A stretch of 64,000 nt of DNA from an uncultured Lachnospiraceae bacterium (lineage in GTDB: Bacteria; Bacillota; Clostridia; Lachnospirales; Lachnospiraceae). How positions within the stretch are numbered: the stretch's first letter is position 1; the number at the start of each line of letters is the position of its first letter. The translations under genes were made by a program, and so were the position numbers. Of this stretch, positions 5,987-59,891 are shown piece by piece. The notes beneath the pieces are model-generated. The model saw only the letters and a list, made by a program, of their open reading frames with translations. It searched no databases and was not told the origin of the DNA. The stretch spans positions 82,643 to 146,642 of the forward strand of contig CAMXQE010000003.1 in NCBI GenBank assembly GCA_947246015.1, written 5' to 3'.

Positions 5987-6178
5987 TTAATTCCTTCCAT
6001 TTCCGTTCTCTCTCCCTGCATGGCAGTCCGTCAGGGCACACCTTGCCGTACACCGCCTCTAAACAGGGATACTATCCTTAATAATACCTGCATTTTTAAA
6101 AGGTAGCAATAACATTCTAAACAATTTTATCATTCGTTTTTTATCTGTCCATCATCATTATCCCTCCCGTCCTCCGTC

Positions 6179-39224: not shown

Positions 39225-39265
39225 GGCTGTATCTATGAATCTTTTGTGAACAGTAACGTAAAAGT

Positions 39266-39407
39266 TTTCACCCTAACCCCATGCCGCCTGCGGCGGCACA
39301 AATCTTTCATGAGAAGAATGCCGCATTTCAGGCATTCTTCAGCGTGAGACTTAGAGTTTCTCCGCGAAACAGCCCTTGCTGTGAGCGGTTAGAAACTCTT
39401 CTCACGC
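39266..39407. repeat. Dispersed palindromic repeat, copy 2
   Basis: This 142-nt copy is better preserved than the one at 16809-16939. On the minus strand it folds as an outer stem AGCGTGAGA / TCTCACGCT holding AGAGTTTCT / AGAAACTCT, then GAAGAATGCC / GGCATTCTTC, then TGCCGCC / GGCGGCA. It begins exactly at the stop codon of the SDR gene. Confidence 0.78.
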
Positions 39408-42430: not shown

Positions 42431-45400
42431 TCAAGACTGACTATATTTATCTAATCCAGAAGATACAATTGCCTCTCTATTTTCAACGTAACCTAGTTCT
42501 ACTAAAAAACGAGAAGGAGGACACAAAAATTGTTCTTTAACAAGCTTCAGCCGAATTTGCACATCTTCCCTCGACAATAAATGAGTTAAGATTCCTAGAT
42601 ACAATGCTGCATATAGGTCATACTCATTTTCTTGATTTTTTAAATGCAATTCAATTGCATCATTTGTTATAAAACAATTATTGATCTTGAGTTCCGGCAT
42701 ACAAACACTTGCAATTCCCCATGAAAAAATACGTCTCAAGTTATGTGGAAGATTTCTTTGGGACCATAGCACGAGTAGCTTTTCTGTTATTTTAGGGACA
42801 AGTTCATGTGGAATAATATCACGTTCATTATATCCCGACCACGCAACACACCAAGTAGCAACATAAACACTGAGGATATCATCTACTTCCAACAAATTAA
42901 GAATTGCAGAATAAATATTCAGCAACAATTGTTTATTTTCTAAACTCCAAAAGCTAGATTTCTCCTGCGATTTTTCAAATGCAACTGCAAATTGAAGCAT
43001 TAATAATGTGCCAGTTATATATTCTTGTCGTTGATTACTATTTAGTAGTTTCATTATATTTTTTAAAGAAGAAAATCCATTATCTTCTATATGTATTTTA
43101 AGCCATGCATCGGAGAATTCATAGATAAAATTTATATCCAGTTCATAAAATAGTATCTGCTTTATAATTTCACGATATTTTACTCCATATTTTCCATTAT
43201 GTATGGTCTTATGCATATTAATTGATATCTCAGACCCAACATGATTCTTTAATCCAATAGAACGTTCATTTTTCACAACAATTTCTATTGCCCGCTTGAG
43301 AATCTCTGGATTCATGGGAACTTCATTGGCAATACAATTTGCCAAACAAAGTGCAGCTATATTATTCTGTGAAATAGTACCTTCTGAATTAAAAGTATTT
43401 TCTTCGCTTTTTTTAAGTAAATAATCTATAACTTTTTCAGCATCGCGCCCTAAAAGGACGGCTATTAGAGGAATAACTTCTATCCACTGTTGTTCATCTA
43501 TATGATTCTCAATAACAGAAAGAATATCACTATCTTGGTCACTAATGATAGGAATCCATCGTTTAAAAATCGCCTTTGCAGTTAAATATTCTTGAAAACT
43601 AAGATGTGAGAATTCATAAAAGGGAACCAATTGACCATTTTCATCCTTTTCCATGCCACGATAAACTAGTAGATTACTCCTCTCCTCCACAAGATTGATA
43701 AATTGGGAAGGGCTAATGATCGTATAGCCTAATAAGTCGGGCAAAGCTTTACGAGCTTCAATAATACACTTATTTAGGCATTCCTTGGAAATCTTTTTCT
43801 GATCACATAATGTCATATGGTGTGCCACATAGGCTAATTGAGGTTCTGCCTCATCTAGATCTAACTTAGCGTGAGCAGCCGCATTCCAAGTAATTAGCAA
43901 TAGCCTAATCATTTCCTCATAAAGTTGGCACTTTTTAGTCGGAAGATAACCAATCCAACGATTTACACAGAGTAGCGTAGTTAAAAGTAACGGAGTCTTT
44001 GCTAAGGCCATAAACCGTGGTTCGCTGAGAATAATTCTGCTAATGTTATCAGAATAAGTTCGAGTTTGCACAGAATCTCCTTGAATTGCTTGATGCCACT
44101 TCAAGCAAAAGTTTCGAATTTGCTCTCGATTCAAATCAACAATCGAATACAGCTCACAATAGCTAGCTAGATTTTCGGCTATTGCACGAAATCCGGTTTC
44201 ACGAGATGTAATAATTAAATGAGTCGAGGGATAAGCTTTTATAAAGGTTTTAAGCTGATCAATAAATGCAATTCTTTGTTGTTCCTTAGTTATTTCATCT
44301 AAGCCATCAACTAATAACAATAGTTGTCCGGCCTGCAATTTATTCTCAACTAAGGCTTTAAATGAATCTTTGTATTTCGAAATTTCTGCACGGTCAACTC
44401 TTGAAATGATAATCTCAAATACACTTGTTGGTAAATAACCATCAAGATCACGGCAACGGATATATATTGGAAACAAATTATAATCAGGAATCTTATCATT
44501 CACTAAATTCCTGCGTTCGGGATATGCAAAAGCCAACGCCAGGCGGCATATCAAGGTTGACTTTCCGCCGCCTGGCGTTGCCAAAATTGCAGATCTTTTT
44601 GCTTGAGTAAGGATTTCATCAATGCCAAGTTCTGGATTTCCGTATTTTTGAATATCTTCATCAGTATGCCTGAATAAAAGTGGGATAAATATGTGCTCCA
44701 AATTCACCTTGATTGCACTTACTCTTTTGTCTGCTGGCATGCCCTCAAATTTAATCTCACCAAGCTCAGAAGACAGATATTGAAAATAAGCTTCTTTAGC
44801 AAGCGATTGTTCCAGAATACTACACGAATTAGGCTTAAGATATATTAAATTTGAATAAGCAGTTGACTGCGACTTTAGTATCGATAAAAAAGGCTTAGCA
44901 ATATCATCGTTTAGATGATTTCCATCTGCATGAATCAGTGCAAAATGTGTTGGAACTTGACAAGGGTATGGTGAATAATATAAAACCCATATCCAACCAT
45001 ATTCGCTAGCAAGTAAGTCAACATATTTGCATAATAAGAGATTCATTTTTTCTGACTTCCGCACTGCACTAACAGCTTGCATAATCGAGCAAATGATGTT
45101 GCCTTGGAGCAACTCGCGGACAATTTCATGTGGTCCCAAAAGAACCAACTCACCATTATTATTACTGTAACAATGTGCGTTCAAACGTTCTTTTTCTTGT
45201 TCTAGAGCAGATTCCGTAAATCCAGACATTGAAACAAAATAGCCTACTACATCTAACCCATCTTGTTCGTATTTGTTTCGCTCTAAATCAAGAACTCCTA
45301 CAAACTTATTGATATCCGTTCCTCCAATTGGTTTTTTCGTTGCCTTACTCTCTATTATAGCAATGCGCTTTTCTGTACGGTGCTGTAAAATCATATCGAT

Positions 45401-45565
45401 TTCACGCCCTACCCGTTGAATATTAGAAGCAACGATGGTGCTAAATCCCAATGCGCAAAAAGCATCATATACTAATTGATTGAAAAGATCCCCTTTTTTG
45501 TTACAATCAGTTTCAGCTATAATAATATTTCGAAGTTCAGAAGCTATTCCATCAGTATGAACCAT
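42431..45565 (-). CDS. NACHT-domain NLR-like protein with N-terminal nuclease-like domain
   Basis: The 1044-aa protein has three parts. Residues 1-110 look like a PD-(D/E)XK nuclease (GREID with D57, then ESK with E72/K74). The middle is a NACHT STAND NTPase with Walker A TPGGGKST (near residue 330), Walker B LLLLVDGLDEI (near 417) and downstream ITSRETGFR and LLCVNRW-type helical segments. The C-terminal 350 residues are helical, as in short NACHT C-terminal helical domains, and would be the sensor. Bacterial NACHT proteins are known anti-phage systems in which sensing triggers an N-terminal effector. GAGGAG precedes the ATG. The gene is AT-rich compared with the core. Confidence 0.88.
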   Translation of the reverse strand: MVHTDGIASELRNIIIAETDCNKKGDLFNQLVYDAFCALGFSTIVASNIQRVGREIDMILQHRTEKRIAIIESKATKKPIGGTDINKFVGVLDLERNKYEQDGLDVVGYFVSMSGFTESALEQEKERLNAHCYSNNNGELVLLGPHEIVRELLQGNIICSIMQAVSAVRKSEKMNLLLCKYVDLLASEYGWIWVLYYSPYPCQVPTHFALIHADGNHLNDDIAKPFLSILKSQSTAYSNLIYLKPNSCSILEQSLAKEAYFQYLSSELGEIKFEGMPADKRVSAIKVNLEHIFIPLLFRHTDEDIQKYGNPELGIDEILTQAKRSAILATPGGGKSTLICRLALAFAYPERRNLVNDKIPDYNLFPIYIRCRDLDGYLPTSVFEIIISRVDRAEISKYKDSFKALVENKLQAGQLLLLVDGLDEITKEQQRIAFIDQLKTFIKAYPSTHLIITSRETGFRAIAENLASYCELYSIVDLNREQIRNFCLKWHQAIQGDSVQTRTYSDNISRIILSEPRFMALAKTPLLLTTLLCVNRWIGYLPTKKCQLYEEMIRLLLITWNAAAHAKLDLDEAEPQLAYVAHHMTLCDQKKISKECLNKCIIEARKALPDLLGYTIISPSQFINLVEERSNLLVYRGMEKDENGQLVPFYEFSHLSFQEYLTAKAIFKRWIPIISDQDSDILSVIENHIDEQQWIEVIPLIAVLLGRDAEKVIDYLLKKSEENTFNSEGTISQNNIAALCLANCIANEVPMNPEILKRAIEIVVKNERSIGLKNHVGSEISINMHKTIHNGKYGVKYREIIKQILFYELDINFIYEFSDAWLKIHIEDNGFSSLKNIMKLLNSNQRQEYITGTLLMLQFAVAFEKSQEKSSFWSLENKQLLLNIYSAILNLLEVDDILSVYVATWCVAWSGYNERDIIPHELVPKITEKLLVLWSQRNLPHNLRRIFSWGIASVCMPELKINNCFITNDAIELHLKNQENEYDLYAALYLGILTHLLSREDVQIRLKLVKEQFLCPPSRFLVELGYVENREAIVSSGLDKYSQS

Positions 45566-45705: not shown

Positions 45706-45879
45706 TCAATTATATTCCCAATAATCATATTCTCTATGTAAATCATACCAATTATCATATAACTCAAAATAAGAATGAAATGTCATGCGATACCCTGAGT
45801 CATCATATATTGTATCACCAGATACATATTCATCACTTGGAAACAATTTCTTCAAGAAAAGCCTTAATAATCTAAACAT
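45706..45879 (-). CDS. 57-aa aromatic, acidic protein at the end of the RiPP operon
   Basis: TTTGGAG lies 10 bp before an ATG at 45879, just after the overlapping upstream gene. The product starts basic (FRLLRLFLKKLF) and ends very rich in Tyr, Trp and Asp (YDNWYDLHREYDYWEYN). No family is recognised. It may be a second small substrate peptide, a chaperone or a structural accessory of the operon. Confidence 0.5.
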   Translation of the reverse strand: MFRLLRLFLKKLFPSDEYVSGDTIYDDSGYRMTFHSYFELYDNWYDLHREYDYWEYN

Positions 45880-45883
45880 AGCA

Positions 45884-46552
45884 CTATAACTCCAAATCAA
45901 ATTTTTTGAGCTGAATGTAATTCTGACAATATGTTATGAGATTAGAAAGTAACTCCTCATTGCCTTTTCTTACCGAATTAATTGGATTTACGATATGACG
46001 CATCATGTTTCCTTTTTCTTCCTTAAAGGGATTAAATCTATATACCGTAGGCAAAAAATCAACAATGACCTTATTAGATACCAAAGCAACATACTTTTCA
46101 TCATACTTATCTGCCAATGTTTTTTCTACACGGACAGATATTTCATTCACGTCAATTTCTTCGTCCGTTCCCCAAATGATACCTTCTTTGGAAATAATTA
46201 GAGTTCTTTCACATACATTGCCTGTAAGATAAATATTTTCATCAATAAATACCATTTGAAATATCGAAATTGCAGTCATAAATTCTTCATATTCTTTTTC
46301 TGTCGGTTCCTTACCAGATACTTTTTTATACACAAGAAATCTTGAAGGTGTCAACGAAACTGAATAATCAAATTTTCCGGAAAATCCATTAGATTCATTT
46401 CTAGCTATAACATCAAACAATTCAACCACATAACGGTATAATCCCTCAATATTTTGTGCCTGTTTCATAGCATCATCATTCTGCATCAACATAACTGGTT
46501 TAAATGATGCTACCAGACACTTTACTTCTTTTAACGCACTTTTTCTTGGCAT
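45884..46552 (-). CDS. Unknown protein in RiPP operon
   Basis: The 222-aa soluble protein follows a strong AAGGAGG site. An N-terminal helical part (EGLYRYVVELFDVIARNESN) leads into beta-rich segments (KFDYSVSLTPSRFLVYKK, NIYLTGNVCERTLIISKEGI). The strand-helix order faintly recalls nucleotidyl-cyclase-like folds, but no catalytic residues are evident. It lies 16 bp after the PHP gene. Confidence 0.75.
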   Translation of the reverse strand: MPRKSALKEVKCLVASFKPVMLMQNDDAMKQAQNIEGLYRYVVELFDVIARNESNGFSGKFDYSVSLTPSRFLVYKKVSGKEPTEKEYEEFMTAISIFQMVFIDENIYLTGNVCERTLIISKEGIIWGTDEEIDVNEISVRVEKTLADKYDEKYVALVSNKVIVDFLPTVYRFNPFKEEKGNMMRHIVNPINSVRKGNEELLSNLITYCQNYIQLKKFDLEL

Positions 46553-46568
46553 AAATTTCCTCCTTCCA

Positions 46569-47465
46569 TTAAATCCAGTTTACCATTTTATCTTTAATTA
46601 TTTCGCAATTTTCAGACAGCCATTCAACTGCTTTGTCGTAATTTAGCAAGGTATGAGAATCGGATCCAATTGTGAGCGAAAAATCATAATTATTAGCTTT
46701 ATCAGTCACAATTTTTCTTATCTCAGTAATCTCATCCATTGATAATCCATACCTATCAAGATGTTCTTCACTGAAAAATTCCCACTCAACTGTCATTCCC
46801 CCCATATCATAGAAAGAATCAATGAGTGCAAGTAATTTCTGCAAAACCGTTGACTTATTTGTATCATCCTTATGACATCTCTTTATTGCAGTATGAATAG
46901 GATGAGCAAGAACAATCACACCATTAAACTTTTTTGCAATTTCAAAAGCATAATCCTCAGGAATAGGATTGCCTTCGTTTTCAGCAAATGCCCAACGTTC
47001 CTTTCTTGCTACCTTCAAATCGCTAAAATCAAACTTTCCATCGTCATATGCTATACCATTTTTATACAGATGAATAATTGCTGCTAAATCTCTTGTTCTT
47101 GCATTATTCACTTTCTGATTTTGAGGAAATGCTCTTTTTATATCATTTTCCCAATCAGTATAGCCTAACTTATAATAACATGCTTTTATGACTTCTTCTT
47201 CCGAAAGTCTAATTTTTTCAAGAGCTTCTTCGATTTTATCAGAATAATCCATCTTCGGAAAATAAACGAGATAATCAGGCGCTCTATCAACAGTCACTTC
47301 ACATCCGACAATCAATTTGGAATCCTGGGTTTTGTCAGCATAGCATTTACAAGCTTGTATTGAATTATGATCTGTGATTGAAAATACTTCACAGTGATTT
47401 ACAACGGTACTAATATCGGTAATTTGTCCATCAGAAAACACTGTATGCATATGCAAATCTATCAT
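46569..47465 (-). CDS. PHP-domain phosphoesterase in RiPP operon
   Basis: The 298-aa protein has the PHP metal motifs: DLHMHTVFSDG (I), SITDHNS (II), HPIH (III) and GSDSHT (IV), giving a tri-metal phosphoesterase site. PHP proteins hydrolyse phosphate esters of sugars, nucleotides or histidinol. Its ATG overlaps the kinase stop codon (ATGA), so synthesis is coupled; a kinase/phosphatase pair suggests a phosphorylated intermediate. Confidence 0.88.
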   Translation of the reverse strand: MIDLHMHTVFSDGQITDISTVVNHCEVFSITDHNSIQACKCYADKTQDSKLIVGCEVTVDRAPDYLVYFPKMDYSDKIEEALEKIRLSEEEVIKACYYKLGYTDWENDIKRAFPQNQKVNNARTRDLAAIIHLYKNGIAYDDGKFDFSDLKVARKERWAFAENEGNPIPEDYAFEIAKKFNGVIVLAHPIHTAIKRCHKDDTNKSTVLQKLLALIDSFYDMGGMTVEWEFFSEEHLDRYGLSMDEITEIRKIVTDKANNYDFSLTIGSDSHTLLNYDKAVEWLSENCEIIKDKMVNWI

Positions 47466-48100
47466 TCATCTTCCTCCAATGCTCGTGCAAGATCTTTTTC
47501 TGGTAGTAAAACTGTTTCAAGCACTTGATCATTTTTATATGCCTCACGATTAGACAAGATGACTTTAGCACACTGTTTCGCACTGTATTTTGTTGTATCA
47601 ATTATTACTTCGTGCTCAATTGATCCTTTAGTTTCTGATGTCTTGGCATATAACTTTCTTAACAACGGTACATTCATATACTCGCCACGTTTGCCACTTC
47701 TTGACTGATTACGTTTTACAATCTTTTCAATAGGCGCATCTAAATAGAACTGTTGAACATAGATTGTATCAAGTTTTCCAAGCTGAGCACCAAAAATAAA
47801 ATCCATAAATAATTTCTGGTCTGTAGGCTCATCAAAAACATAATCCACAACTACATCAAATCCTTCGAGTAAGAAGTTTTTTGAAAGCAAAGCTGCATTT
47901 CTAATAGCAAGCTTTTCTCGGTCTTTACTCATAGGTCTTAAATCATACAACTGAAAATTATCTACAGCTATATGTGTTTTCTTTTTAGCTGAATTAAGTG
48001 ATGCAACTTTCGAAGCTATAGTTGATTTTCCTACAGCTGGTGATCCTCTTAAAATTATCAATCTAGGAACTTCTACTCCTTCACTCATTATTACCGGCAT
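47462..48100 (-). CDS. P-loop kinase (zeta-toxin/polynucleotide-kinase type) in RiPP operon
   Basis: The 212-aa protein has Walker A RGSPAVGKST near the start, a DNFQLYD acceptor-side motif, VVVDYVFDEP and the lid arginines in KRNQSRSGKRGEY. Such kinases phosphorylate small molecules, nucleosides or sugars with ATP. It overlaps the radical SAM gene by 20 bp and has GGAGG before its ATG. Confidence 0.82.
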   Translation of the reverse strand: MPVIMSEGVEVPRLIILRGSPAVGKSTIASKVASLNSAKKKTHIAVDNFQLYDLRPMSKDREKLAIRNAALLSKNFLLEGFDVVVDYVFDEPTDQKLFMDFIFGAQLGKLDTIYVQQFYLDAPIEKIVKRNQSRSGKRGEYMNVPLLRKLYAKTSETKGSIEHEVIIDTTKYSAKQCAKVILSNREAYKNDQVLETVLLPEKDLARALEEDE

Positions 48101-49145
48101 TATGCATTCCTCCTTCTAATATGTATTTATCAGGCGCAGGATATTTACCTCGACATGTCATTTTACATGCTCCTACACAAAATACAAAGTCTTCACATTC
48201 TAGGCATTCTTCTTTTTGCCAATAAAACTGTTGAAATTCAGTTATTGCAATACTGCTATTCCACAAGTCTTTAATTCCTGTTTCAAAAATATTTCCAGCA
48301 ACCGATCCGCCCGTAGGACACATTCTTATATTTCCAAATATATCAATACTAACCTGCCCTACCCAAGCATAACAGGGACGTACACTATATTTCATTTTAT
48401 TATAATCCAAATTTCTTTCATAAGCAATCTTTTTAAGCCAACATCTTGGGAATGCCTCTATACGAACAGGAATTGTCTCAATATCTAATTTACATATCTG
48501 TTCAAATACTTGTTTATACTCATTTTCATTCAAAAATTGAAGATACGTTGTTCCATTTTCAACCATTCTGCTCAGATCCATTCTCACTGGCGTTCCAATC
48601 CTACTAAGAAAGCTGTGCATTTCTTCTATTTCAAGATAGTTTTCTCTTATCAGTGAGGTTTGCGAATACCATCTTATTCCATTCTGTTCCAAATAGTGTA
48701 TTGCTTTAAGAATTCTACTATATGATTGCGGCGATTTTGCAATATTATTTTGCACTTCTTCTCTTATTGAATGAAAGGAAATACCCACCTCAATATCCTT
48801 GTATTTCATGAGTTTTTTAGTAAACTCCTCATCAATGATTTGACCATTTGTCACAAAACATTGCATATATCCCAAAGAATCTGCATAATCTATCGTTTCC
48901 CAAAAATACTTGTATATTGTAGGCTCACCACCAAGATATGTAACTTCTTCACATCCAGCTTGTCTCATTTCGTCCAAAATCTGTTTTACTTTTTCAAAAT
49001 CTGCATCAACCCGTTCTTTACTTGGCTCATTGTAGCAAAACCAACACCTCAAATTACATCGTTGGGTAAGATCCAAGAAAAACATAAGGGGATGGTCAGG
49101 AATAATCAACTTTCCATTTTCATCCATCATTTCATACAAATTCAT
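48081..49145 (-). CDS. Radical SAM/SPASM-type enzyme 4 of the RiPP operon
   Basis: The 354-aa protein has the [4Fe-4S] motif C30-x3-C34-x2-C37 (RCNLRCWFC), the GGEPT motif and a Cys-rich SPASM-type C-terminus (MCPTGGSVAGN; CLECEDFVFCVGACKMTC). SPASM enzymes modify ribosomal peptides by forming thioether or C-C bonds. It lies 3 bp from the B12-type enzyme gene. Confidence 0.88.
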   Translation of the reverse strand: MNLYEMMDENGKLIIPDHPLMFFLDLTQRCNLRCWFCYNEPSKERVDADFEKVKQILDEMRQAGCEEVTYLGGEPTIYKYFWETIDYADSLGYMQCFVTNGQIIDEEFTKKLMKYKDIEVGISFHSIREEVQNNIAKSPQSYSRILKAIHYLEQNGIRWYSQTSLIRENYLEIEEMHSFLSRIGTPVRMDLSRMVENGTTYLQFLNENEYKQVFEQICKLDIETIPVRIEAFPRCWLKKIAYERNLDYNKMKYSVRPCYAWVGQVSIDIFGNIRMCPTGGSVAGNIFETGIKDLWNSSIAITEFQQFYWQKEECLECEDFVFCVGACKMTCRGKYPAPDKYILEGGMHNAGNNE

Positions 49146-49148
49146 ACC

Positions 49149-50621
49149 TCAAGACCCCCTTTTCTTTGCGAAACGATTTGTTAAGCCATTATCAAAAACA
49201 TAGTATTTCATTTCTATGGCTACATCCATTGGAACAAAATGATATGTACCAGAACAGTTTGAATAAAACTGCTCAACAATAGGATTCCCTTGTTCGTAGT
49301 AAAACAATCCCATTTCTCGCTCTATTATGTTTTTATCATATGATGGTTCATAAAACTCTGGAAGCACACCATATTTCTTTGCCATCATTGTTTCTGGCCA
49401 AATCGCCGTAATGGAATAGAATGCATTCCTCTCTATTTTATTCTTGAATATCCAATCTATACTTTTTTTGATATCCTCGACCGTTTCATTCGGCAAACCT
49501 ATCTGATATGACGCATCACAATGAATGTTCCTTTTTTTACATTCTCTAATGAGTTCCAAGCATCTTTGTATGTTTTGCATCTTATGAAAATCTTTTAAAT
49601 TTCCCTCTTTATAATTTTCTAATCCAAAATAGGTATACGAAAAGCCTATTCTTTGTAGTCTGTCTAATATTTCTGTATCTACCTCGCTACTACAAATTGG
49701 CGCTCCCCAATTGAACACAAGCTTTCTACTCAGTATTTCTTTTTCTAATTCGTCAAAGAACTTTTTATCACTTTTTATTGGAAATGTAGGATCATCAAAA
49801 TATATAGCACCTACTCCATCATGTATTAAAAGTTCTATTTCATCAGCAATGCTCTTTGCTGATCTTATTCTTCGACATGGCTTTCCAGATATCTGATCTC
49901 TCCAATACATTCCAGGTGAACAAAACGTACAATTATTATAGCAACCACGAGACGCTACAATTCGCGCATGCCCATTGTCAAATCCCGGCAAATGAGAATA
50001 AAACACACGTGTATAGTTTTCCTCAGCAATAGCTCTTTCTTCGATATTATATATAGCAAAAAATGCCTCTCTGTCTGGAAATTCCAAACAGTTTATATCA
50101 ACCATTTTTCTAGGAATAACAGATAATTCATTTGATGAATATATTATTCCTGGAATTGGAGTATTTCTTTCCCCTTGACTAATGCTTTGTAGGAGGTCAC
50201 ATATAGCATCCTCTCCCTCTCCTACTATAGCAGCGTCAAACAAATCTCTATGCCATCTCCTAAACTGTTCTGAACAAGCCGATATATGCGGCCCACCAAC
50301 AACCGTATATGCTTCTGGAAACGTATGTCTTACATAAGATAACATTCTAAGTCCATTCTTAAGATTTGTTGTATTCAGTGACATGCACAAAACATCAGGC
50401 GCATATTTTCTAATTTCTTCTTTAACCCGTCCTTCTGCTTTTTCCAATGAAGTACTCTCATCTTTCTTAGCATAAATCCATCTAATTGCATCTTCATCCA
50501 ATACAATCGACTGATTTCCTTGCTTCTTTACCGCCGACGAAAGATACGCCACTCCCAAAAACAGACTGTGATTGCTTCCCATATAAGCCGGGAGCATAAA
50601 TGCTACTTTTAACATTTTCAA
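49149..50621 (-). CDS. B12-binding-type radical SAM enzyme of the RiPP operon
   Basis: The 490-aa protein has an N-terminal cobalamin-binding-like Rossmann domain (residues 1-140; VVGGPHIS) and a radical SAM barrel with CYNNCTFC near residue 230 and DDPTF. Class B enzymes of this type add methyl groups to unactivated carbons or rearrange carbon skeletons. The start is TTG (50619-50621) with AAGGAG 8 bp upstream, and it shares TTGA with the glycosyltransferase stop. Confidence 0.87.
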   Translation of the reverse strand: MKMLKVAFMLPAYMGSNHSLFLGVAYLSSAVKKQGNQSIVLDEDAIRWIYAKKDESTSLEKAEGRVKEEIRKYAPDVLCMSLNTTNLKNGLRMLSYVRHTFPEAYTVVGGPHISACSEQFRRWHRDLFDAAIVGEGEDAICDLLQSISQGERNTPIPGIIYSSNELSVIPRKMVDINCLEFPDREAFFAIYNIEERAIAEENYTRVFYSHLPGFDNGHARIVASRGCYNNCTFCSPGMYWRDQISGKPCRRIRSAKSIADEIELLIHDGVGAIYFDDPTFPIKSDKKFFDELEKEILSRKLVFNWGAPICSSEVDTEILDRLQRIGFSYTYFGLENYKEGNLKDFHKMQNIQRCLELIRECKKRNIHCDASYQIGLPNETVEDIKKSIDWIFKNKIERNAFYSITAIWPETMMAKKYGVLPEFYEPSYDKNIIEREMGLFYYEQGNPIVEQFYSNCSGTYHFVPMDVAIEMKYYVFDNGLTNRFAKKRGS

Positions 50622-51580
50622 CTTACAGTCTCCTTATATATCTTTATTTGTTGTTGAATATATTCATCATAAGCAATCTTCGGCATATGATGTTTACCGG
50701 CACATATCACTTCGCATCCACATTTTACTGCTTCAGAAAACAGATTTGACTCTTCTAGTATCCCAGACGGAATTTCTGATAATAAAACATACTTTGCATT
50801 TTTCAATACACTCGGCACATCTTCCGGATCAATAAATGAATAAGGTTTTACTATAAATCCTTGCTTCTCAAAATAATCCTTAAACGCACTTACCGTATAA
50901 TTATTCGAATATACTCTTATCGCACCATAATATTTGCGTTCTTTTAATCCTGACAGAAAATAGTCAAACTGATTTCTATTCCATTTTTCTGTGATTTTTC
51001 CCAAAAATACTGCATTTTGACCTTTTCCATCATCATAAAAAAATGAAGCATTAGGGACGTATCGTTCTGTGAAATATAGTCTCGCATTCTTATCTATTCT
51101 TCTCCATACATCTTCGCAATCTCTGTATGTCACAATTACTTTTGCATTACTTGTCATTTCCCTTACAACATCATCAAACTGCCCTGCCGAAATTATCCTA
51201 TGCAAATCACTTCCTGCATGACGTAATATCAAAGGTTTAACCAATATTTTAGCCACAACAAAAGCTGCAAAACCATATGGAAAAAGATAAGATCCCTCAA
51301 CAGCATCAAACTCTTTATTCTTAGCAATTTTTAATGCCAAAGAAATAAGTTGCTCTGCATATAACTGCGAATATGGTATATGCCATGATATTCTTTCAGA
51401 AAGCACATGAACATTTTCGTTATTATTATACTTTGGAATGCAATAATCACTATCATTCAAAATACAAGTAACAATCTCAAAATTGATGCCATGTTTGAGA
51501 AGTTCCTTATGCCTCCAGTATGCTGCCGATGCAGTACCACCTTCTATTGGTGGATACTTACCAATGAATAAAATATTCAT
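50618..51580 (-). CDS. Glycosyltransferase (GT4-like) in RiPP operon
   Basis: The 320-aa protein has a GT-B start (FIGKYPPIEGGTASAAYWRH), a linker helix with LILRHAGSDL and a C-terminal nucleotide-sugar domain (SFIDPEDVPSVLKNAKYVLL, then EESNLFSEAVKCGCEVI). GT4 enzymes transfer sugars from NDP- or GDP-sugars. Its start overlaps the asparagine-synthetase-like gene by 23 bp. In this setting a glycosylated peptide or cofactor is the obvious reading. Confidence 0.82.
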   Translation of the reverse strand: MNILFIGKYPPIEGGTASAAYWRHKELLKHGINFEIVTCILNDSDYCIPKYNNNENVHVLSERISWHIPYSQLYAEQLISLALKIAKNKEFDAVEGSYLFPYGFAAFVVAKILVKPLILRHAGSDLHRIISAGQFDDVVREMTSNAKVIVTYRDCEDVWRRIDKNARLYFTERYVPNASFFYDDGKGQNAVFLGKITEKWNRNQFDYFLSGLKERKYYGAIRVYSNNYTVSAFKDYFEKQGFIVKPYSFIDPEDVPSVLKNAKYVLLSEIPSGILEESNLFSEAVKCGCEVICAGKHHMPKIAYDEYIQQQIKIYKETVS

Positions 51581-53153
51581 TCCTTTTTATCCTTTCAACA
51601 TCGTCTCGCCATTCATCCAAATCAATCTTCTCCAATGGACGCAAAGTATAATATTTATGAAAAATATCTAACATTAAAATACTGGCCTTATTCCCCTTCA
51701 AAATATCAGAATATGGATTCTTTGATAGCTCAGCTCCCATCAAAGCCAATGCATTGATTTGCCTGTTAAATGAATTCGGAACAACCGATGGCATAGCCTG
51801 TTTTTTTCTTGTAACCAATTCAGCCAAACCAATATCACTCAGATATGAAAGCAAGAAGCATCTTAATAAAAGTTTCGTTTTATCTCCATCGCACAGCCAT
51901 TCCATCGGAACGTCTTTTATCACCTTATAAAGAGAACCTGACATAAATGTTGGATAATTCAACATATCAAACGCCTTAGCTGAATGCTCCACGCAACTCA
52001 AATGATAATTTGTAAGAGCAGTCCCCTGAAGGAAGTAGTATGCCATTTCCCGGTAAAATGACCGTTCTTCAGTATCTGGGAACATTGTATTAATAACAGT
52101 CTGTACGTTTGTATGTTTAGTCAATGATTTTAATCTGTCTACAAACCCAAACGTATGCGTCAATTGCCAATAATAACCGCCAAGAATTTCATCCGCGCCT
52201 TCTCCCGGAAAGATTATTTCGTATCCCATCTTTTTAACTTCATCACATAACAAATAATAGGCAAAACCTCCTAACGGAGAAAAAATGCCTTCAAGTTCAA
52301 GATTTTCAATGCTATTAAGAAACTCTGGCAACTTATATAAAGCCTTCGTCTCATCAAACCTAATAATAGTATGATTGCTCTTAATGCACGTCGCCAGCTG
52401 TTTTGCAAAATATACATCTTCTGTATTATTCTCAGAAGCAAAAGATATAGTATCTATTTTTCCTATACTTTCACTTGCAGCAATAGCTAAAGCAGATGAA
52501 TCCATTCCACCCGATAATAAAAATGCCTTTGCACCTTTAATACCTGCTGCAGATGCCACCACTTCTTTAAATGTTGCAGAAAACGCTTCATACGCGTCAT
52601 CAAAAGAATTAAAACGATCCTTATCTCCAGATAAAATCGTATCTCGGTCTATATTAAAATTGCCATCTTTCCAAGACATTCTAAAATTTCTTGGAATCTG
52701 TTTAATATGAGCAAATAAAGTCTTCTCCTGCGACAAAATATAACCTAATGTTGCCGATTCAATTAGCGCGTTCTCATCATAGCGTTCAACTCCTTCAATT
52801 GGAAGGGATAATATAAACCGAATATCTGACGAAAAGTAAAAGCCATTATTTACCAAACAATAATATAGGGTTCTTGTTCCCCAATGATCTCTTTTCGCAA
52901 AAAACTCCTGCTTGTTCATTTTTATGATTGTCATCATCGAATAGGCTTCTGAGCTATCGCACTTGCCGATTTCTATCTCTGTTGAGTCTTCGGATATTTC
53001 ACTCAAAAAGTCCTTAGAAACAACAATGGTGTACCTCTCGTTGTCGATAGATACACCGTTAGTAATAGTCTCTTTATAAGCATCACCCATTGTCTTTGCA
53101 GTTGGTTTTGTACCAGAAAACGACCAAAACCCTATAAAACCCTTTATGGACAT
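51558..53153 (-). CDS. Asparagine-synthetase-like ATP-dependent amide-bond enzyme
   Basis: The 531-aa protein has an N-terminal glutaminase-like domain without the catalytic Cys2 (it begins SIKGFIGFWSF), so it cannot use glutamine in the usual way. The C-terminal synthetase domain has the PP-loop SGGMDSSALA and GEGADEILGGY. In lasso peptides, homologues (McjC) adenylate a side chain and close a macrolactam. AGGAG is 9 bp before the ATG. It follows the PqqD-like gene by 12 bp. Confidence 0.86.
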   Translation of the reverse strand: MSIKGFIGFWSFSGTKPTAKTMGDAYKETITNGVSIDNERYTIVVSKDFLSEISEDSTEIEIGKCDSSEAYSMMTIIKMNKQEFFAKRDHWGTRTLYYCLVNNGFYFSSDIRFILSLPIEGVERYDENALIESATLGYILSQEKTLFAHIKQIPRNFRMSWKDGNFNIDRDTILSGDKDRFNSFDDAYEAFSATFKEVVASAAGIKGAKAFLLSGGMDSSALAIAASESIGKIDTISFASENNTEDVYFAKQLATCIKSNHTIIRFDETKALYKLPEFLNSIENLELEGIFSPLGGFAYYLLCDEVKKMGYEIIFPGEGADEILGGYYWQLTHTFGFVDRLKSLTKHTNVQTVINTMFPDTEERSFYREMAYYFLQGTALTNYHLSCVEHSAKAFDMLNYPTFMSGSLYKVIKDVPMEWLCDGDKTKLLLRCFLLSYLSDIGLAELVTRKKQAMPSVVPNSFNRQINALALMGAELSKNPYSDILKGNKASILMLDIFHKYYTLRPLEKIDLDEWRDDVERIKRNEYFIHW

Positions 53154-53165
53154 TGTTTTTAACTC

Positions 53166-53450
53166 CTATTTTACAATAATCAATCCTGCTTCATACAAAG
53201 AAATCACATACTCCGCTAAATCTGCTGAAATTTGTTCCTTCTCGGCATTATATTCTGATGCTATTTTATCAACGGTTTCATCAAATTTATATCCCTTTTT
53301 GATCATATCAACAATCTCATATTCCATTTCTGAGAGATTATACTGTTTTCCTGATTCACTATCTAAAATAAAAAAAGTCTCACCTAAAATATTTCTTACA
53401 GATGCATTTTTCTTCATCTCAAATATACTATCTTCTCTTATTTCCAACAT
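53166..53450 (-). CDS. PqqD-like leader-peptide recognition protein
   Basis: The 94-aa protein fits the RRE/PqqD fold: RNILGETFFILDSESGKQYN, then LSEMEYEIVDMIKKG and a helical end. Such proteins bind the leader of the precursor and hand it to modifying enzymes. It overlaps the radical SAM/SPASM gene by 13 bp and lies directly before the asparagine-synthetase-like gene, as B1 and C genes do in lasso clusters. Confidence 0.85.
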   Translation of the reverse strand: MLEIREDSIFEMKKNASVRNILGETFFILDSESGKQYNLSEMEYEIVDMIKKGYKFDETVDKIASEYNAEKEQISADLAEYVISLYEAGLIIVK

Positions 53451-54445
53451 TGTGGATCCTCCTGCATAAAATCTCCAGTAGCTAAATAGGCCATTGATCT
53501 ACATCCCCTACACTCAAGAAAATGTTTGCATCCATTACATTTACCCTTATAGTTACTGTAATCTCTCAACTGCCATAGCACTTCTGAATTAAACCAAGTA
53601 TTCACAATGCCATCTTTCAATACATTTCCGATAGGAATAGGTAGTCTTCTACAAGGTAAAATGGTTGCATCTGGCAAAATCGTAAGTGCGCTAACGCCTG
53701 CTGAACACATCGCACCAACAGTATTATCATCACTACATAAACAATAAAGTGTTCTGTATAATAACAAATGTGGAACCTTAATCTTGAAGGCTTGCTCAGT
53801 CATGTAATCAAAAATCTTCTTTGTTTCCTCTTTTGAAAGAATCCAACTTGTATTACTTTCACCCTGACCTTCAGGCATAAAACGTTCTAAGGCAAAATAA
53901 TCCACTTCAAGAATACCTAAAAGTTCAATCAAATCAGGAATCAAATCCATATTATTTCTTGTTAATGTAGTCATTACACTCATTACAAAACCATTTGCTT
54001 TTAGCTTCTTAATGGCATTTGTAACTCTCTCAAAATCTCCGTCACCTCTGACTGCATCATGAGATTCCGGTGTAGGTCCTTCCATAGAAACCTGAATTCG
54101 TCGAAGTTTTGTATATTTCTTTAATCTAACAATATCATCATCATTAATTAGTGTACCATTTGTGAGAATATCATAATGAGCTACTCTCTCACATTTTTCT
54201 TCCACATAATCCAATAAGTAGAATAAATCTTCTTTACGAGTAAATGGTTCTCCGCCAGTAATTGACATGCTACTGTGAAAATTCCACTTTTCAAGAGCCT
54301 CCTCAATCTGATTAGCAATTTGAAGTAATTGCTCAGTTGTCATTTCATTTTTTTTGTCATAATCAGCATGATAACAATGTTTGCATCTGTTATTACATAC
54401 ATTTGTTATATGCCACTGAAAATAAAAATCAGTATTTTCAATCAT
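53438..54445 (-). CDS. Radical SAM/SPASM enzyme 2 of the RiPP operon
   Basis: The 335-aa protein has C17-x3-C21-x2-C24 (VCNNRCKHC), GGEPFT and a SPASM domain with cysteines at CSAG, CRRLPIP, CNGCKHFLECRGC and the final DPQC. It resembles PqqE- and sactipeptide-type maturases that install bonds on a RRE-bound precursor. It follows the first radical SAM gene by 9 bp. Confidence 0.9.
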   Translation of the reverse strand: MIENTDFYFQWHITNVCNNRCKHCYHADYDKKNEMTTEQLLQIANQIEEALEKWNFHSSMSITGGEPFTRKEDLFYLLDYVEEKCERVAHYDILTNGTLINDDDIVRLKKYTKLRRIQVSMEGPTPESHDAVRGDGDFERVTNAIKKLKANGFVMSVMTTLTRNNMDLIPDLIELLGILEVDYFALERFMPEGQGESNTSWILSKEETKKIFDYMTEQAFKIKVPHLLLYRTLYCLCSDDNTVGAMCSAGVSALTILPDATILPCRRLPIPIGNVLKDGIVNTWFNSEVLWQLRDYSNYKGKCNGCKHFLECRGCRSMAYLATGDFMQEDPQCWK

Positions 54446-54454
54446 AATATAAAT

Positions 54455-55354
54455 TTAAGCCTCCGTATAATTTGCCATCAAATACTTTGGACATTCACCC
54501 ACAAGACTACATTGATGACATTTTTCTTTTAGCAATGCTGGTGCTTTCTCACCAATTGCAATTATTCCTTTTGTGTTCAAGCAGATAATATTGATTTCTT
54601 CGACTACTTCCTGATGTTCGGCAAGTCTTTCTTCAAGGCACAACGGAAAATCTCTAAATGTAATCTCATATGATGCGCTATCACAGCTATTTATTACTTC
54701 AGACAGTACATTTTTATATTCATCAACCTTAAACTTCAATTCATCATGATAGTAAGCATTCCCATGATGAATATAATGTGTAAATGTCAGTTTATCGATA
54801 GGAATTCCATTCTTTGAAAACATCTGTGCAATTTGTGGCATATCATCAATATTTAACGCACACACAACCGAATTAATAGTAACTTTCAAGCCTCTATTCG
54901 ACAACTGTCTTATTGCCCCTAATGTATTGTCCAAACTCCCCTGAACACCTGTTAGCCTATCATGCACTTCCTTCGTCGAACCATGAATCGAAGTCGCAAC
55001 ACTTTTAATTCCTAGATCGCAAATCATATTGATTGTTTTGCAACTATCTTTGTAATCACAGCAAGTAGAAAGAACAATACTATCGCAATAATTTTGTGCT
55101 AACCTAACAATATCAGAGAAATCTTTTCTAAGTGTAGGTTCCCCTCCAGCAATATACAATTTTGTTATGTCGCCATACTCAGTAATGTATTGCAATATTG
55201 CCGACTTTATATCGGAAAGAACAGGCAATGATTCATTACTGTCACCTGGTTCCATTCGTTCCATACAAAACATACAGTTATGATCACAAAGCCTATCGTA
55301 TCCATCAAGATATTTTGCAACATGAATCACAGCGACATTTTCTCTGCTACTCAT
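54455..55354 (-). CDS. Radical SAM enzyme 1 of the RiPP operon
   Basis: The 299-aa protein has C23-x3-C27-x2-C30 (CDHNCMFC) and AGGEPT. Its C-terminal half has a short Cys pair region (EKCHQCSLVGECPKY) that may bind one auxiliary cluster. It is the first enzyme gene after the attenuator hairpin; GAGGAG precedes the ATG. Confidence 0.88.
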   Translation of the reverse strand: MSSRENVAVIHVAKYLDGYDRLCDHNCMFCMERMEPGDSNESLPVLSDIKSAILQYITEYGDITKLYIAGGEPTLRKDFSDIVRLAQNYCDSIVLSTCCDYKDSCKTINMICDLGIKSVATSIHGSTKEVHDRLTGVQGSLDNTLGAIRQLSNRGLKVTINSVVCALNIDDMPQIAQMFSKNGIPIDKLTFTHYIHHGNAYYHDELKFKVDEYKNVLSEVINSCDSASYEITFRDFPLCLEERLAEHQEVVEEINIICLNTKGIIAIGEKAPALLKEKCHQCSLVGECPKYLMANYTEA

Positions 55355-55373
55355 ATGTCACAACTCTCCTCTT

Positions 55374-55416
55374 AAAAAATAATGCAGGACGACTTGACAG
55401 CGTCAGCCCCCTGCAT
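55374..55416 (-). terminator. Attenuator-like terminator between precursor gene and enzyme genes
   Basis: On the minus strand a stem ATGCAGG / CCTGCAT with inner GACG / CGTC is followed by TATTTTTTAAG. It lies 31 bp after the precursor stop and before the radical SAM operon. Partial read-through would give much more precursor than enzyme, the usual logic of RiPP clusters. Confidence 0.75.
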
Positions 55417-55446
55417 CCTCTCGCCCAATAATTGAAATTGTAAACA

Positions 55447-55578
55447 TTAGCCTCTGCATCCATGACATGATGAACACTGGTTGCATGTTACCGCACCCTT
55501 AACATGAACCTTTACAACATCAAAAACAAAACTGCTTTTCTCCTGAGCCTTTAATACTGGTTTTTTGTATTCTTTCAT
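55447..55578 (-). CDS. Candidate RiPP precursor peptide (43 aa, CX2CX2CX2C core)
   Basis: An AAAGGAG site lies 8 bp before the ATG at 55578. The 43-aa peptide has a charged leader (residues 1-14, with Y4-x2-P7 as in leaders read by PqqD-like proteins), a hydrophobic middle (S15-V30, FVFDVVKVHV) and a C-terminal core with cysteines at 32, 35, 38 and 41 in CNQCSSCHGC followed by RG. It is too short for ordinary gene calling. It precedes two radical SAM enzymes and a PqqD-like protein, so I read it as their substrate. A small Fe-S or zinc peptide is the main alternative. Confidence 0.8.
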   Translation of the reverse strand: MKEYKKPVLKAQEKSSFVFDVVKVHVKGAVTCNQCSSCHGCRG

Positions 55579-55628: not shown

Positions 55629-55657
55629 ACGATATCACTTTTTTTTAAAATTGTCAA
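55629..55657 (-). promoter_or_regulatory. Promoter of the RiPP operon
   Basis: On the minus strand TTGACA (55652-55657) is followed after 17 bp by TATCGT (55629-55634), about 50 bp before the precursor start. The rest of the 345-bp gap up to the relaxase gene is AT-rich and shows no gene. Confidence 0.65.
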
Positions 55658-55923: not shown

Positions 55924-57612
55924 CTACCTCGCTCCTTTATCTTTCTGTCTTGCCTGATACACCCTGCCTGCTTTTCTTTCTTTTATAACCTGCTCTTTTT
56001 GCCTGAGCCTGTTCCTGACACTCCATGTATCCACAGCCCTTTCTCCGTAAGTTTTCTCGTACTCCGCACAAGCCACTTCATAATCATGATTCTCTTTCTT
56101 TGCCGCATTGAGTTCCTTATAAAATGCCTGCACAGAGTCGAAGTTATATTCCCTGACAATAGAGGAAAGCCTCCTTTTCATATTGGAAATCTGGAAGTCA
56201 AGACTGTCAATCTCCTGTTGTAACTCCTTGCGTCTGCCGCCTTTGAAAATACCCATACATTCAGACAATTCTTTTTTCAGCATATCCCTTTCTTTCTCTC
56301 GCCCGAAAATTGCCTTGTTCTGGTCTTTCAGCCTTCCCTCAATCTCTTTCAGGCGGGGATATTTACTCGCAAGTACAGACATTTTGGGCTGCGATGGTCT
56401 TTCTGCTGTCTTCCCAGTTTTAACCGAAACAGGCTCTTGTTCTGCCGTTATCTGCTTGATGATGCTTTCTTTTTTTATGGGATTAGCCGCTGAATGTTCT
56501 CCATTCTTTTTCATATCCAATCCCCGATATGGATTCACGGGAAACGGTATCTTTTTTCTTCCCAGCTGGAATGTCAGATTATCCCCTGCATGAATACGGC
56601 TGTCCATTTCCTTTGATTTTTCCTTAGCGGCACTAACATCAATATCAATCACTTTCTCCGCTATATCCAACACTTTCCGCACTGTTTTCGCAATCAGAAG
56701 TTCTAATAACAGAATCGCTGCCCTGACAATCTCCCCGAACAGCTCCGGCTTTTGTCCGTTCTGCTCCACGGATTCCTTTACTTTGTCCGTTATCTCCGCT
56801 TTTTTAAGTTCCACAATCTCCGCATCCGATACGCCGCTTACAATCGCACGGTCAACGGTTCTGTTCTATTCCATGCGGATTTCATTGTCTGTTTTGATTT
56901 CCTCCGCTTTTGAGTTATTTTTGCCAACCTTCTTTGTCGCAAGATATGGGCCGTTTTTATCGAAAATACTGAGCCTGTCCTTATCATCAAGCACCATCTT
57001 ATTGATTAAATCCGTATAAAACACTTTTACCCCGTCTAAAAAGGATTCCTGCTTAAAGCGTTCATCTTTAGTAGTGAAAATCTTACGCTCATAAACTTCG
57101 CCTTTTTTAATGATTTTACAGCCTTTGCGGATATTTCCATCCCCATCAAGAATCTCTTTCTTTGTCCTCACATGACACCCACGCTCATCATAGAACATAT
57201 TCCGTGTAGCTGTTTTTTCTGTCGGCTGTTCCAGCCGCTTTCTCTCCGCAAATATCATATGGATATGCAGGTTTGTTTTCCGCTTGTTGTGATGAAGCGC
57301 AGCAAAGCACTCCACGCCGTACTTTTCTTTAAATTCGTCTACCATTTTTTTCAAAAGATAATCATGGTCATAATTGATAAAACTCTCCGGCAGCGCAACC
57401 ATCAGCTCCCTTGCCTCAATGCACTTCCCATTCGTGCCGCTTTTTTCAAATTCTTCCTGATTACATTTGGCAAGTTCCTGCCAAAATACCCTGTCCGGCT
57501 CCGTTGCATAAACTTCATAAAGATACTCCTGCTTGGCGTGGCTTGAAATATAAGTGATGCGCCCTGACAAGTCATGCAGCTTTGCCATTTCTATAAATGA
57601 ATTTCTTCTCAT
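55924..57612 (-). pseudogene. MobA/MobL relaxase interrupted by an in-frame amber codon
   Basis: From an ATG at 57612 (AAAGGAA upstream) the frame encodes a relaxase N-terminus with the His motif LHIHMIFAERK. It stops at TAG (56866-56868) after RME, then stays open in the same frame (NRTVDRAIVSG...) to 55924. One CAG-to-TAG change explains it. The C-terminal part has a coiled coil. Either the relaxase is inactive, a suppressor reads through, or the second part restarts at GTG (56814). The reading frame upstream of 57612 (to 57900) is not coding. Confidence 0.82.
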
Positions 57613-58368
57613 AAACGTTGTTCCTTTCCTTTGGTGGATACTCCTGCCGCCATAACTTTCTTTGAGAGCAGCCCTTATAGGGCGGCTGGCTGTGAACCGA
57701 TGCCCGTATCCGGGCAGTTTACGGCTGTTGCTTTCTGACAGCCGCAGGGGGCTTCGTTCTGCGAAGTTCCCCCTGCGATGCTGCACATCTGCCCTGAAAT
57801 GTAGCCGTAAGCAGCAGAGCCGTCCATGCGCCCGTCCTCTGGGCGGCATGGAGAAATACAGTCCGGCTTTTTCGGACTGTATAAATTTGCACCTGCGCAA
57901 ATTTGCCCCCGGCAGGGCGAAATCCCCGGAGCATAAACCGAAGGTTTGTGCGTAGGGTGTATTTCGCTCTCAAACGCCGAGGGCTTAGGGGAGAGCTTGC
58001 GCTCTCCCCGGAAATCAGCTTCTGACACTCCCCGAACCACTCCAAAGCAGTTCGTAGGGCAGATACTTCACGGACATCAAAAAACCGCCTGCCTGAAAAC
58101 TGGTATTCCAGCTTCAAAACAGACGGCTACATTTGCACCTTTATTTGCGGCCTTCCGGCTGCTTTCTGCCCTTATTTTACGGGCTTAAATGCCCGCCCTT
58201 TATCATGCAGCCTTTAACGGCTGCCCTTTGTCTTTGTTTTGTAGCCTTTCGGCTACCCTTTGTCGGTCTTTTATGAAAATATGGATACATTTATGCTCTG
58301 ATGTAAAAAAATCCACAAAAATAAGGCTACAGTAAGCCTGATTACCATAGCCCTACTCTGCAAATATA
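57613..58368. other. oriT-like region rich in inverted repeats
   Basis: This 756-bp gap upstream of the relaxase holds nested repeats: GCAGGGGG / CCCCCTGC around CTTCG / CGAAG (near 57740-57775), AGTCCG / CGGACT (near 57860), AAATTTGC / GCAAATTT (near 57885), GGGGAGAGC / GCTCTCCCC (near 57990-58010). Toward its right end are tandem short hairpins of the kind GCAGCCTTT-CGGCTGC (58206-58262). The open frames here look non-coding. The nic site is not identified. Confidence 0.5.
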
Positions 58369-58896
58369 TTAAAATGCATCAAAATCAATCAAATCATTGT
58401 CCGGCGGCTCTGTGGCATTCTTCGATACAGCTTCTTCCTGCATATCCCCTGCATTCTGCATATCTGCCGGATTGGAAACAATGAGGGAAATTACCCCACT
58501 CATTACTGCATTTTCATTATTAGTACCGTTTGCCAATGCCTGACCGTACACCATGCCGCCCTGCGTCGCTGGGTATGCACTCATAGGAACGGATAAGGGA
58601 AAAAGCTGCATCTGTGCCATATACATCCCAAAAAGTGCCGGGAGATTGGACATCACTTTCTTTTCCACCGTTTCCACAATACGCTCCGCAAAAGCGTCCT
58701 CTTTCTCCCTTGTTTCTAGATAGGGATCACGCTTTACCGCCACACAGCGGTCATAATAATCATTGACCGCTTCTATCACAAATTTATTCTGTGACTTGAA
58801 CATCTGCCGTATCTGTGGGGAGTGCAGGAGTTCCCACGCCCTGCACTCGTCCCCTTTTTCCATGTTAAAGCGGATATTGTGGTTTTTGTTTTTCAT
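58369..58896 (-). CDS. ParR-like partner of the ParM-like ATPase
   Basis: The 175-aa protein has a basic N-terminus (NKNHNIRFNMEKGDECRAWELL) with a helix-rich region like ribbon-helix-helix adaptors, followed by a long Met/Asn-rich tail ending in acidic residues (DNDLIDFDAF). It lies 14 bp after the ParM-like gene. ParR adaptors link centromere-like DNA to ParM filaments through an acidic C-terminal tail. Confidence 0.65.
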   Translation of the reverse strand: MKNKNHNIRFNMEKGDECRAWELLHSPQIRQMFKSQNKFVIEAVNDYYDRCVAVKRDPYLETREKEDAFAERIVETVEKKVMSNLPALFGMYMAQMQLFPLSVPMSAYPATQGGMVYGQALANGTNNENAVMSGVISLIVSNPADMQNAGDMQEEAVSKNATEPPDNDLIDFDAF

Positions 58897-58910
58897 TTGG
58901 ATGCACCCCC

Positions 58911-59861
58911 TTATCCGGCTGAAGCCATTGCTTTCTGCCTGCGCAGTTTCATATAGCAGAAATATTCGTAGCCTTTGGCATTCGCCCGTATATCGTGGTT
59001 GAAAGTGACATTGCTGCTGTCGTAATCCCCGGCAAGTTCCACAACCTTTGCGCCGCCGCCCATGACATACAGTTTCATAAGGTTAGGGTTGTAGCCGTGC
59101 GCTTTCAGTTCCGCAAATATCTTATCCACATAGGATTTTGCCGCTTCTTCCATGAGCTGCCGGTATTCCCCGCCTGTCCCAGTATCGCCGTAACGCAGAT
59201 AATTCTCGATGATCTCTGCCGGAAGTTCCTCCGCTTTCTTATCCAGAACATAGTCACGGATCGCCTTAAAACACTCACACACGCCAAGCCTTACCGTCCA
59301 CGATCTGCTCTCGCTCGCCTTTCCGTTATTGAGTATCATCACGTTCATTGTCCCATTGCCAATATCCGCTACCATGTGCATCCCCTTAAAATCCGGCAGG
59401 CTCTCCGCTATCGCCGCATAACACTGCGGCATGACCGTACAGTCCACAATGTCAATCACATAACGCTTTCCGGCATATCTGTAATCTACATGACGGTTCT
59501 GCATCATATATTCCCGGAACGAATCCCGCTGCGTTTGCACCCATTTAAGCGGAAGCCCCACCGCAAGGTGGATCTTCGCAGTATCAAGCCCCCTTGCTTT
59601 CAATTCCTTTGCGATGGCGGCAAGTGTGAGGATGTAATTATCATCATCCATGCTCTTTTCCGCCACGAAATCTTTATGCCCTTCGCCTATGGTGTAATAA
59701 CTGCCGTCATATTCCAGAAAGTTTCTTGTAAAAATGGGCGGCTGGTCACTCCTGCTCACGGAAGTCGGAAAACAGCACCTCGCCGTCTTATAGTTCCCAT
59801 ATCCCGCATCCACGCCTAAAATAATTGTCCCGTTCATGTTGTAATCCCTGATCTTTGTCAT
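58911..59861 (-). CDS. parM: ParM/StbA-like actin-family ATPase
   Basis: The 316-aa protein has the actin-fold motifs LGVDAGYGNYK (phosphate 1), VADIGNGTMNV (phosphate 2) and YVMGGGAKVV (adenosine). It forms filaments that separate plasmid copies. GAGGAC lies 8 bp before the ATG at 59861. Finding it in an integrated element implies an extrachromosomal phase. Confidence 0.88.
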   Translation of the reverse strand: MTKIRDYNMNGTIILGVDAGYGNYKTARCCFPTSVSRSDQPPIFTRNFLEYDGSYYTIGEGHKDFVAEKSMDDDNYILTLAAIAKELKARGLDTAKIHLAVGLPLKWVQTQRDSFREYMMQNRHVDYRYAGKRYVIDIVDCTVMPQCYAAIAESLPDFKGMHMVADIGNGTMNVMILNNGKASESRSWTVRLGVCECFKAIRDYVLDKKAEELPAEIIENYLRYGDTGTGGEYRQLMEEAAKSYVDKIFAELKAHGYNPNLMKLYVMGGGAKVVELAGDYDSSNVTFNHDIRANAKGYEYFCYMKLRRQKAMASAG

Positions 59862-59891
59862 ATAAAAAGTCCTCTCTTTCACATTATTTTG

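Follow-up and report, generated by a model that had tools for sequence, protein, structure and literature searches.

Some phages are said to carry a copy of the very element by which a host suicide system is kept silent. Examples of such mimicry are pseudo-ToxI, from phage PhiTE (PMC3475682), and a mimic of the DarTG antitoxin (PMC11481870), and both serve as precedents for the logic proposed here. The co-location of lanthipeptide genes with defence systems is the topic of a further paper (PMC12715929). The locus described here lies in a 64,000-nucleotide stretch (the window) of contig CAMXQE010000003.1 from an uncultured Lachnospiraceae bacterium, where the gene for a 43-residue precursor peptide heads an operon that resembles those for ribosomally synthesized and post-translationally modified peptides (RiPPs). 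We know of no RiPP that acts as the switch of an anti-phage system, nor of any phages with an orphan RiPP precursor matching enzymes found in hosts, and a literature search for the peptide motif and for RiPP-linked phage defence returned no such system (the search did not extend to preprints and most subscription papers). The twelve genes, peptide plus predicted modifying enzymes, may form an anti-phage defence (probability about 0.42) in which the modified peptide checks a hydrolase-type effector and phage-borne copies of the peptide gene serve as antitoxin mimics.

The operon comprises 12 open reading frames (ORFs) arranged head to tail on the minus strand (55578 to 45706), in the order peptide, rS1 and rS2 (radical S-adenosylmethionine (SAM) enzymes), RRE (a PqqD-like RiPP recognition element), ASN (asparagine-synthetase-like), GT (glycosyltransferase-like), a B12-type radical SAM enzyme, rS3 (also radical SAM), KIN (kinase), PHP (phosphoesterase), U222 and U64. 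Its location and strand agree with a preliminary description made from the letters alone, which had counted eleven genes, one too few. The tight spacing claimed there holds behind a 92-bp gap between peptide and rS1, since all 10 remaining junctions overlap or span at most 20 bp (9, -13, 12, -23, -4, 3, -20, -4, 16 and -17). The enzyme set claimed (four radical SAM enzymes, RRE, an amide-type enzyme, GT, kinase and PHP) is borne out by Pfam and by motifs, with GT and PHP below the Pfam cut-offs. All four radical SAM enzymes match PF04055 and contain CxxxCxxC; the SPASM domain (PF13186) is found in rS2 and rS3 and the B12-binding domain (PF02310) in the B12-type enzyme, while the PHP metal motifs, the kinase P-loop and the PP-loop motif SGGMDS are intact. 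The N-terminal Cys of glutaminases is missing from ASN in the lineage of the window, and most of the distant syntenic ASN relatives start MCG. As in a RiPP biosynthetic locus, a short precursor gene stands beside an RRE gene and genes for modifying enzymes.

The last 12 residues of the peptide, CNQCSSCHGCRG, include four Cys. Across loci the core C[RK]QCSSCHGCR hardly varies, and Tyr, Pro, the four Cys, Ser and His are kept in 17 of 17 aligned copies. A profile of the peptide retrieved 910 clusters among 5.8 billion proteins; in metagenomes, eight peptides 79-91% identical to that of the window, as well as the window's own cluster, all retain C[NK]QCSSCHGCRG. NCBIfam models gave no convincing match to 17 precursors (best E 0.017). 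The preliminary description had named homologous neighbourhoods that always lack the peptide as a sign against it. The outcome was in its favour: exactly one peptide gene is present in each of 20 locus-bearing genomes, namely that of the window and the genomes of 19 other loci, and two of these 20 genomes hold near-identical contigs. (Numbers with L denote loci or records outside the window, and c3, c5, c8, c10 and c11 denote groups of neighbouring genes in those loci.) The CxxCH motif invites another interpretation, in which CSSCH would form a c-type haem site or belong to an iron-sulphur mini-protein and would be no RiPP core. Two listed peptides are named cytochrome c by a source, and weak cytochrome matches were seen. 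We give this hardly any credence: the peptide has no hydrophobic signal stretch, the operon has no cytochrome gene, and of 21 bacterial loci with the peptide 20 also have an RRE relative, the last one (L014) being cut.

The same peptide occurs in phages. Two profile scans of viral contigs yielded 41 IMG/VR virus records with a peptide gene (30, then 11 further among 33), and tblastn confirmed all 33 stretches matching QCSSCHGC in the second scan. A terminase large subunit is encoded near the viral peptide in L047, L059, L064, L069 and L162 (from neighbours scanned or read), and other viral neighbours include a Mu-type portal (L052), an SU10-type adaptor (L047, L058) and an internal virion protein (L058). 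No radical SAM domain was found in 40 of the 41 records (none positive of 29, then one of 12), an absence that, because virus records may be fragments, is no proof for any single phage; the control search was positive in 14 of 14 genomes, with 49 matches in the host of L010. Orphan precursors of this kind would correspond to phage-borne mimics of the neutralising element in a toxin-antitoxin or abortive-infection defence if they do neutralise an effector. The exception, L162, encodes a 257-residue radical SAM protein (2144-2917) about 3 kb upstream of its peptide (5968-6117), with the terminase gene and a SpeD-like gene as neighbours. At 1e-3, blastp matches this protein to none of rS1, rS2, rS3 and the B12-type enzyme, and it presumably resembles a phage gene of the spore-photoproduct-lyase/Rv2578c type. 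Searched in whole, 29 virus records contain no rS2, and the rS2 profile found one 29% match in viral contigs, in a record without the peptide. Operon and neighbour proteins compared with the fetched viral stretches gave just one weak partial match, to ASN (L059, 5e-4), and c3 has no relative in viral contigs.

The phage peptides are under purifying selection: among the 33 distinct phage precursors the DNA of the 11-residue core comes in 33 versions, yet these encode only 10 core peptides. A shared peptide would also be expected from a defence running in the reverse direction, with host enzymes modifying the phage peptide, the product triggering the effector, and the phage gene acting as the sensed signal. 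We consider this improbable, since the host's own precursor beside the enzymes would trigger the effector constantly, and a gene that purely betrays its carrier should be lost by phages, yet it is kept under purifying selection. A tyrosine integrase was detected in 1 of 21 virus records tested, which speaks against phage precursors being morons that help the lysogen by way of a bacteriocin, a secreted RiPP that is antibacterial. Antibacterial activity is known for many characterised RiPPs whose precursors are Cys-rich, but the nearly invariant core argues for another role, as does the operon itself, where Pfam and motif scans (Pfam covering the ten proteins from rS1 to U222) recognised no transporter, peptidase or membrane protein; a bacteriocin is very improbable.

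The leaders bear on the proposed mimicry. The motif YxxP is present in 20 of 20 host copies. Of 33 phage peptides, 30 have it at most 30 residues ahead of the core, and L049 has it further upstream. The motif fits the recognition sequence W/Y/LxxP/L/I, which is reported for many groups of RRE, that of PqqD included (PMC12710340). Host leaders are mainly of two types, M.FP and F.F[DET], and in counts that ignore kinship these follow the type of operon: all 12 distinct operons of FP type have c5 or c11, and none has KIN or PHP in the fetched stretch, while KIN and PHP are present, and c5 and c11 absent, in each of the five of F.F type (the window, L002, L012, L019/L116 and L020). Hosts L016 and L096 belong to neither type, and L115 shows no operon genes. 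Among phage leaders 20 are FP, 12 are F.F (L160 doubtful) and one, in L157, is L016-like; this unusual leader, RLAQETIEEATGKL (near 6001-6150), is a 60% match to that of host L016, which is unusual as well. For 30 of the 33 phage leaders the type agrees with that of the closest host leader (the exceptions being L046, L049 and L161). One phage lineage alone (L057/L058/L062) has two precursors, one FP and one F.F, which in L058 lie at 5828-6001 and 9995-10123 among head genes. Two leader types in one lineage, together with the matching of types, are what a phage gene meant for the enzymes of its host would be expected to show.

Scanned with a profile, 84,980 species genomes gave 38 loci. Those with a peptide are in metagenome-assembled genomes (MAGs) assigned to at least seven phyla: Bacillota, Actinomycetota, Thermodesulfobacteriota together with other 'Deltaproteobacteria', Calditrichota, KSB1, Chloroflexota and Acidulodesulfobacteriota; the contig L028, from Wallbacteria, is not long enough for the peptide to show. 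The recurring set is peptide, SPASM enzyme, RRE, AsnB-like enzyme and GT, and the gene order is rS2 - RRE - peptide - large hydrolase-type gene - c3 - ASN - GT or rS2 - RRE - peptide - c3 - GT - rS3 - KIN - PHP - dGTPase-like - ASN. The operon is more than a chance assembly, because near-identical metagenome peptides keep the core and other phyla have the gene set too. Protein rS2 of the window is 44-50% identical to those of distant loci and 71% identical to that of Schwartzia. Relatives of the B12-type enzyme lie beside L012 and L028, and those of rS3 in L012, L019, L020 and L096; KIN is 63% identical in L002 and 33-36% in L012, L019 and L020, and PHP, 45% identical in L002, adjoins KIN in L012. 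When the 7996 candidates sharing most words with ASN were scored, 47 close relatives (33-77% identity) were found besides the window's own cluster. MAG misbinning was seen in one case, the near-identical contigs L020 and L021 being filed under two phyla (as Ignavibacteriales and Syntrophaceae).

Beside the core genes stand alternative large genes, c5 in 14 loci, c11 in 5 and c8 in 6 (near-duplicate contigs counted). Group c5 matches MBL and c8 matches dGTPase/HD, while c11, a possible HD hydrolase, shows HD-like motifs. By their domains, plain in c5, c8 and PHP and hinted at in c11, these are candidate effectors. PADLOC assigns c8 to dGTPase (1.8e-53) and, weakly, c5 to LmuA (2e-4), and has no match for c11 or for PHP of the window; KIN, the other window operon enzyme scanned, weakly matches VakA (5e-4). 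Neighbouring genes match 'Effector, endonuclease' (4.8e-21) and Upx (1e-24) in PADLOC, and 77 flank proteins include type I restriction genes, HmaC and a PLD-helicase. In the window itself, a gene on the same strand 140 bp downstream of U64 (42431-45565, minus strand) encodes a defence-like 1044-residue protein with Mrr-type nuclease and NACHT domains, for which PADLOC has no match. Further neighbours were observed in other loci. A 1291-residue protein with calcineurin-phosphoesterase, STAND/NACHT-like and TPR parts is encoded directly behind the GT gene of L017 (8343-12218), and a DNA methylase (N6_N4_Mtase) directly behind the peptide in L011 (4527-5240), L013 and L014/L015. A conserved P-loop protein of about 170 residues, c10, is encoded near the GT gene in L011 (12154-12669), L009, L013, L017 and L023, accompanied by c11 in L009 and L017.

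The distribution of these loci is very sporadic. ASN is found in none of 298 other genomes of the family and rS2 in none of 15 congeners; in the phylum to which L015 belongs, one of 394 other genomes has the locus. This bears on whether the product could be an intracellular RiPP akin to a cofactor or signal, like PQQ (pyrroloquinoline quinone) and mycofactocin, with no role in defence and with the phage precursor an auxiliary gene that aids replication. A core nearly invariant over phyla, one precursor per genome and the lack of export genes would all suit such a compound, and GT recalls the glycosylation of mycofactocin. So sporadic a distribution would not, nor would the alternative hydrolases and defence-type neighbours, and two leader types in one phage lineage exceed what an auxiliary gene would need; we regard the cofactor or signal as unlikely, while allowing it a real chance.

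Under the defence proposed here, the RRE would bind the YxxP leader, as its domain and the motif suggest, and rS2 would build thioethers on the four Cys. ASN would then form an amide and GT add a further group, with rS1, rS3, the B12-type enzyme and KIN adding still others in the subtype of the window. The product would stay inside the cell, as an operon with no recognised means of export suggests, and would restrain the effector of its subtype, be it MBL (c5), dGTPase-like (c8), a possible HD hydrolase (c11) or, in the window, PHP. A phage that shuts down gene expression in its host would thereby lower the supply of peptide, and the effector would fire; a precursor carried by the phage and matured by the host enzymes would keep the effector silent. 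We tentatively suggest, at somewhat less than an even chance, a new class of immunity in which a near-fixed peptide made by radical SAM enzymes in many phyla restrains interchangeable nucleases or nucleotide hydrolases, and from which phages escape through an unmodified peptide gene finished by host enzymes, with separate mimics for each enzyme subtype. If this is true, radical SAM natural-product chemistry is tied to bacterial immunity and the patchy distribution of so conserved a peptide is explained. The system also makes hundreds of unnamed small Cys peptides open to testing.

Table 1. Features of the operon in the window, listed from upstream to downstream
Feature	Position	Strand	Description and evidence
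Promoter-like site	55629..55657	-	TTGACA-17-TATCGT with TG, about 50 bp upstream of peptide; such sites no commoner than in shuffles
Precursor peptide	55447..55578	-	43 residues; core CNQCSSCHGCRG, leader YKKP...FVFD; alternative ATG at 55602
rS1	54455..55354	-	Radical SAM enzyme, no SPASM match; PF04055 1.3e-15; CDHNCMFC
rS2	53438..54445	-	Radical SAM/SPASM, conserved enzyme of family; PF04055 + PF13186
RRE	53166..53450	-	PqqD-like, predicted leader-binding protein; PF05402 7.1e-10
ASN	51558..53153	-	Asparagine-synthetase/lasso-cyclase-like ligase; PF00733
GT	50618..51580	-	Glycosyltransferase-like; Pfam 19.8 of 23.4 bits (below cut-off); synteny conserved
B12-type enzyme	49149..50621	-	Radical SAM enzyme; PF02310 + PF04055
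rS3	48081..49145	-	Radical SAM/SPASM; PF04055 + PF13186
KIN	47462..48100	-	P-loop kinase, AAA_33/PSTK-like; AAA_33
PHP	46569..47465	-	Phosphoesterase, candidate effector; Pfam 21.9 of 26.4 bits (below cut-off); metal motifs
U222	45884..46552	-	No family found
U64	45706..45900	-	ORF call

U222 and U64 have no relatives in the compared loci, and the hairpin that lies between peptide and rS1 has a z of -1.33, which is not significant. Adjoining the operon on the same strand, 55924-61868 holds a mobile backbone with a MobA/MobL relaxase, an actin-like partition-type protein and a serine recombinase with DUF4368, and part of 61.9-64 kb has 80-89% similarity to sequence in two congeners that lack rS2. 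A repeat of about 145 bp at approximately 39265-39411, a short interspersed element, has 18-25 listed matches in each of four congeners and a few in its own genome, the matches mostly being at 70-87% identity.

Ten operon proteins (all except U222 and U64) were compared with NCBIfam, taking at most the 25 best families per protein (25 of 40, 83 and 75 for rS1, rS2 and rS3). In these lists of best families every score stays below the curated cut-off, in keeping with the earlier view of an undescribed-looking RiPP operon outside the named classes. The best rS2 match is to TIGR04340, at 183.9 of 400 bits (194 bits for the relative in L010). This model belongs to the ACGX system, from which the locus differs in missing that cut-off and in having precursors without ACGX repeats. 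Sactipeptides and ranthipeptides share a Cys-rich precursor, a SPASM radical SAM enzyme and an RRE, and rS2 has solved relatives in 6efn (SkfB, 2.7e-11) and 5wgg (3.9e-9), the latter of which we take to be CteB. No named sactipeptide or ranthipeptide maturase equivalog reaches its cut-off among the families shown, and the window system differs in its AsnB-like ligase, GT and hydrolase genes, its near-invariant core and its lack of an exporter. Lasso peptides likewise have an AsnB-like ligase and a discrete PqqD-type RRE (NF033536, 7.3e-10), but the window system has four radical SAM enzymes and a C-terminal Cys core; ASN scores 56.6 of 525 bits against the lasso AsnB-like macrolactam cyclase model NF033535, and the transglutaminase-like leader peptidase (lasso B protein) was not found among the 10 proteins, rS1 to U222, scanned with Pfam. 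Mycofactocin, which is glycosylated, and PQQ share with the window system a PqqD-type RRE, a SPASM enzyme and a conserved core peptide; they differ in their precursor, and in the window system precursors are also borne by phages. Scores of rS2 against the PqqE and MftC equivalogs are low (TIGR02109, 88.3 of 381; TIGR03962, 120 of 265). The phage antitoxin mimics would be alike in logic, a phage carrying a copy of the proposed silencing element. They differ in that the element copied here is a RiPP precursor, which would require the enzymes of the host.

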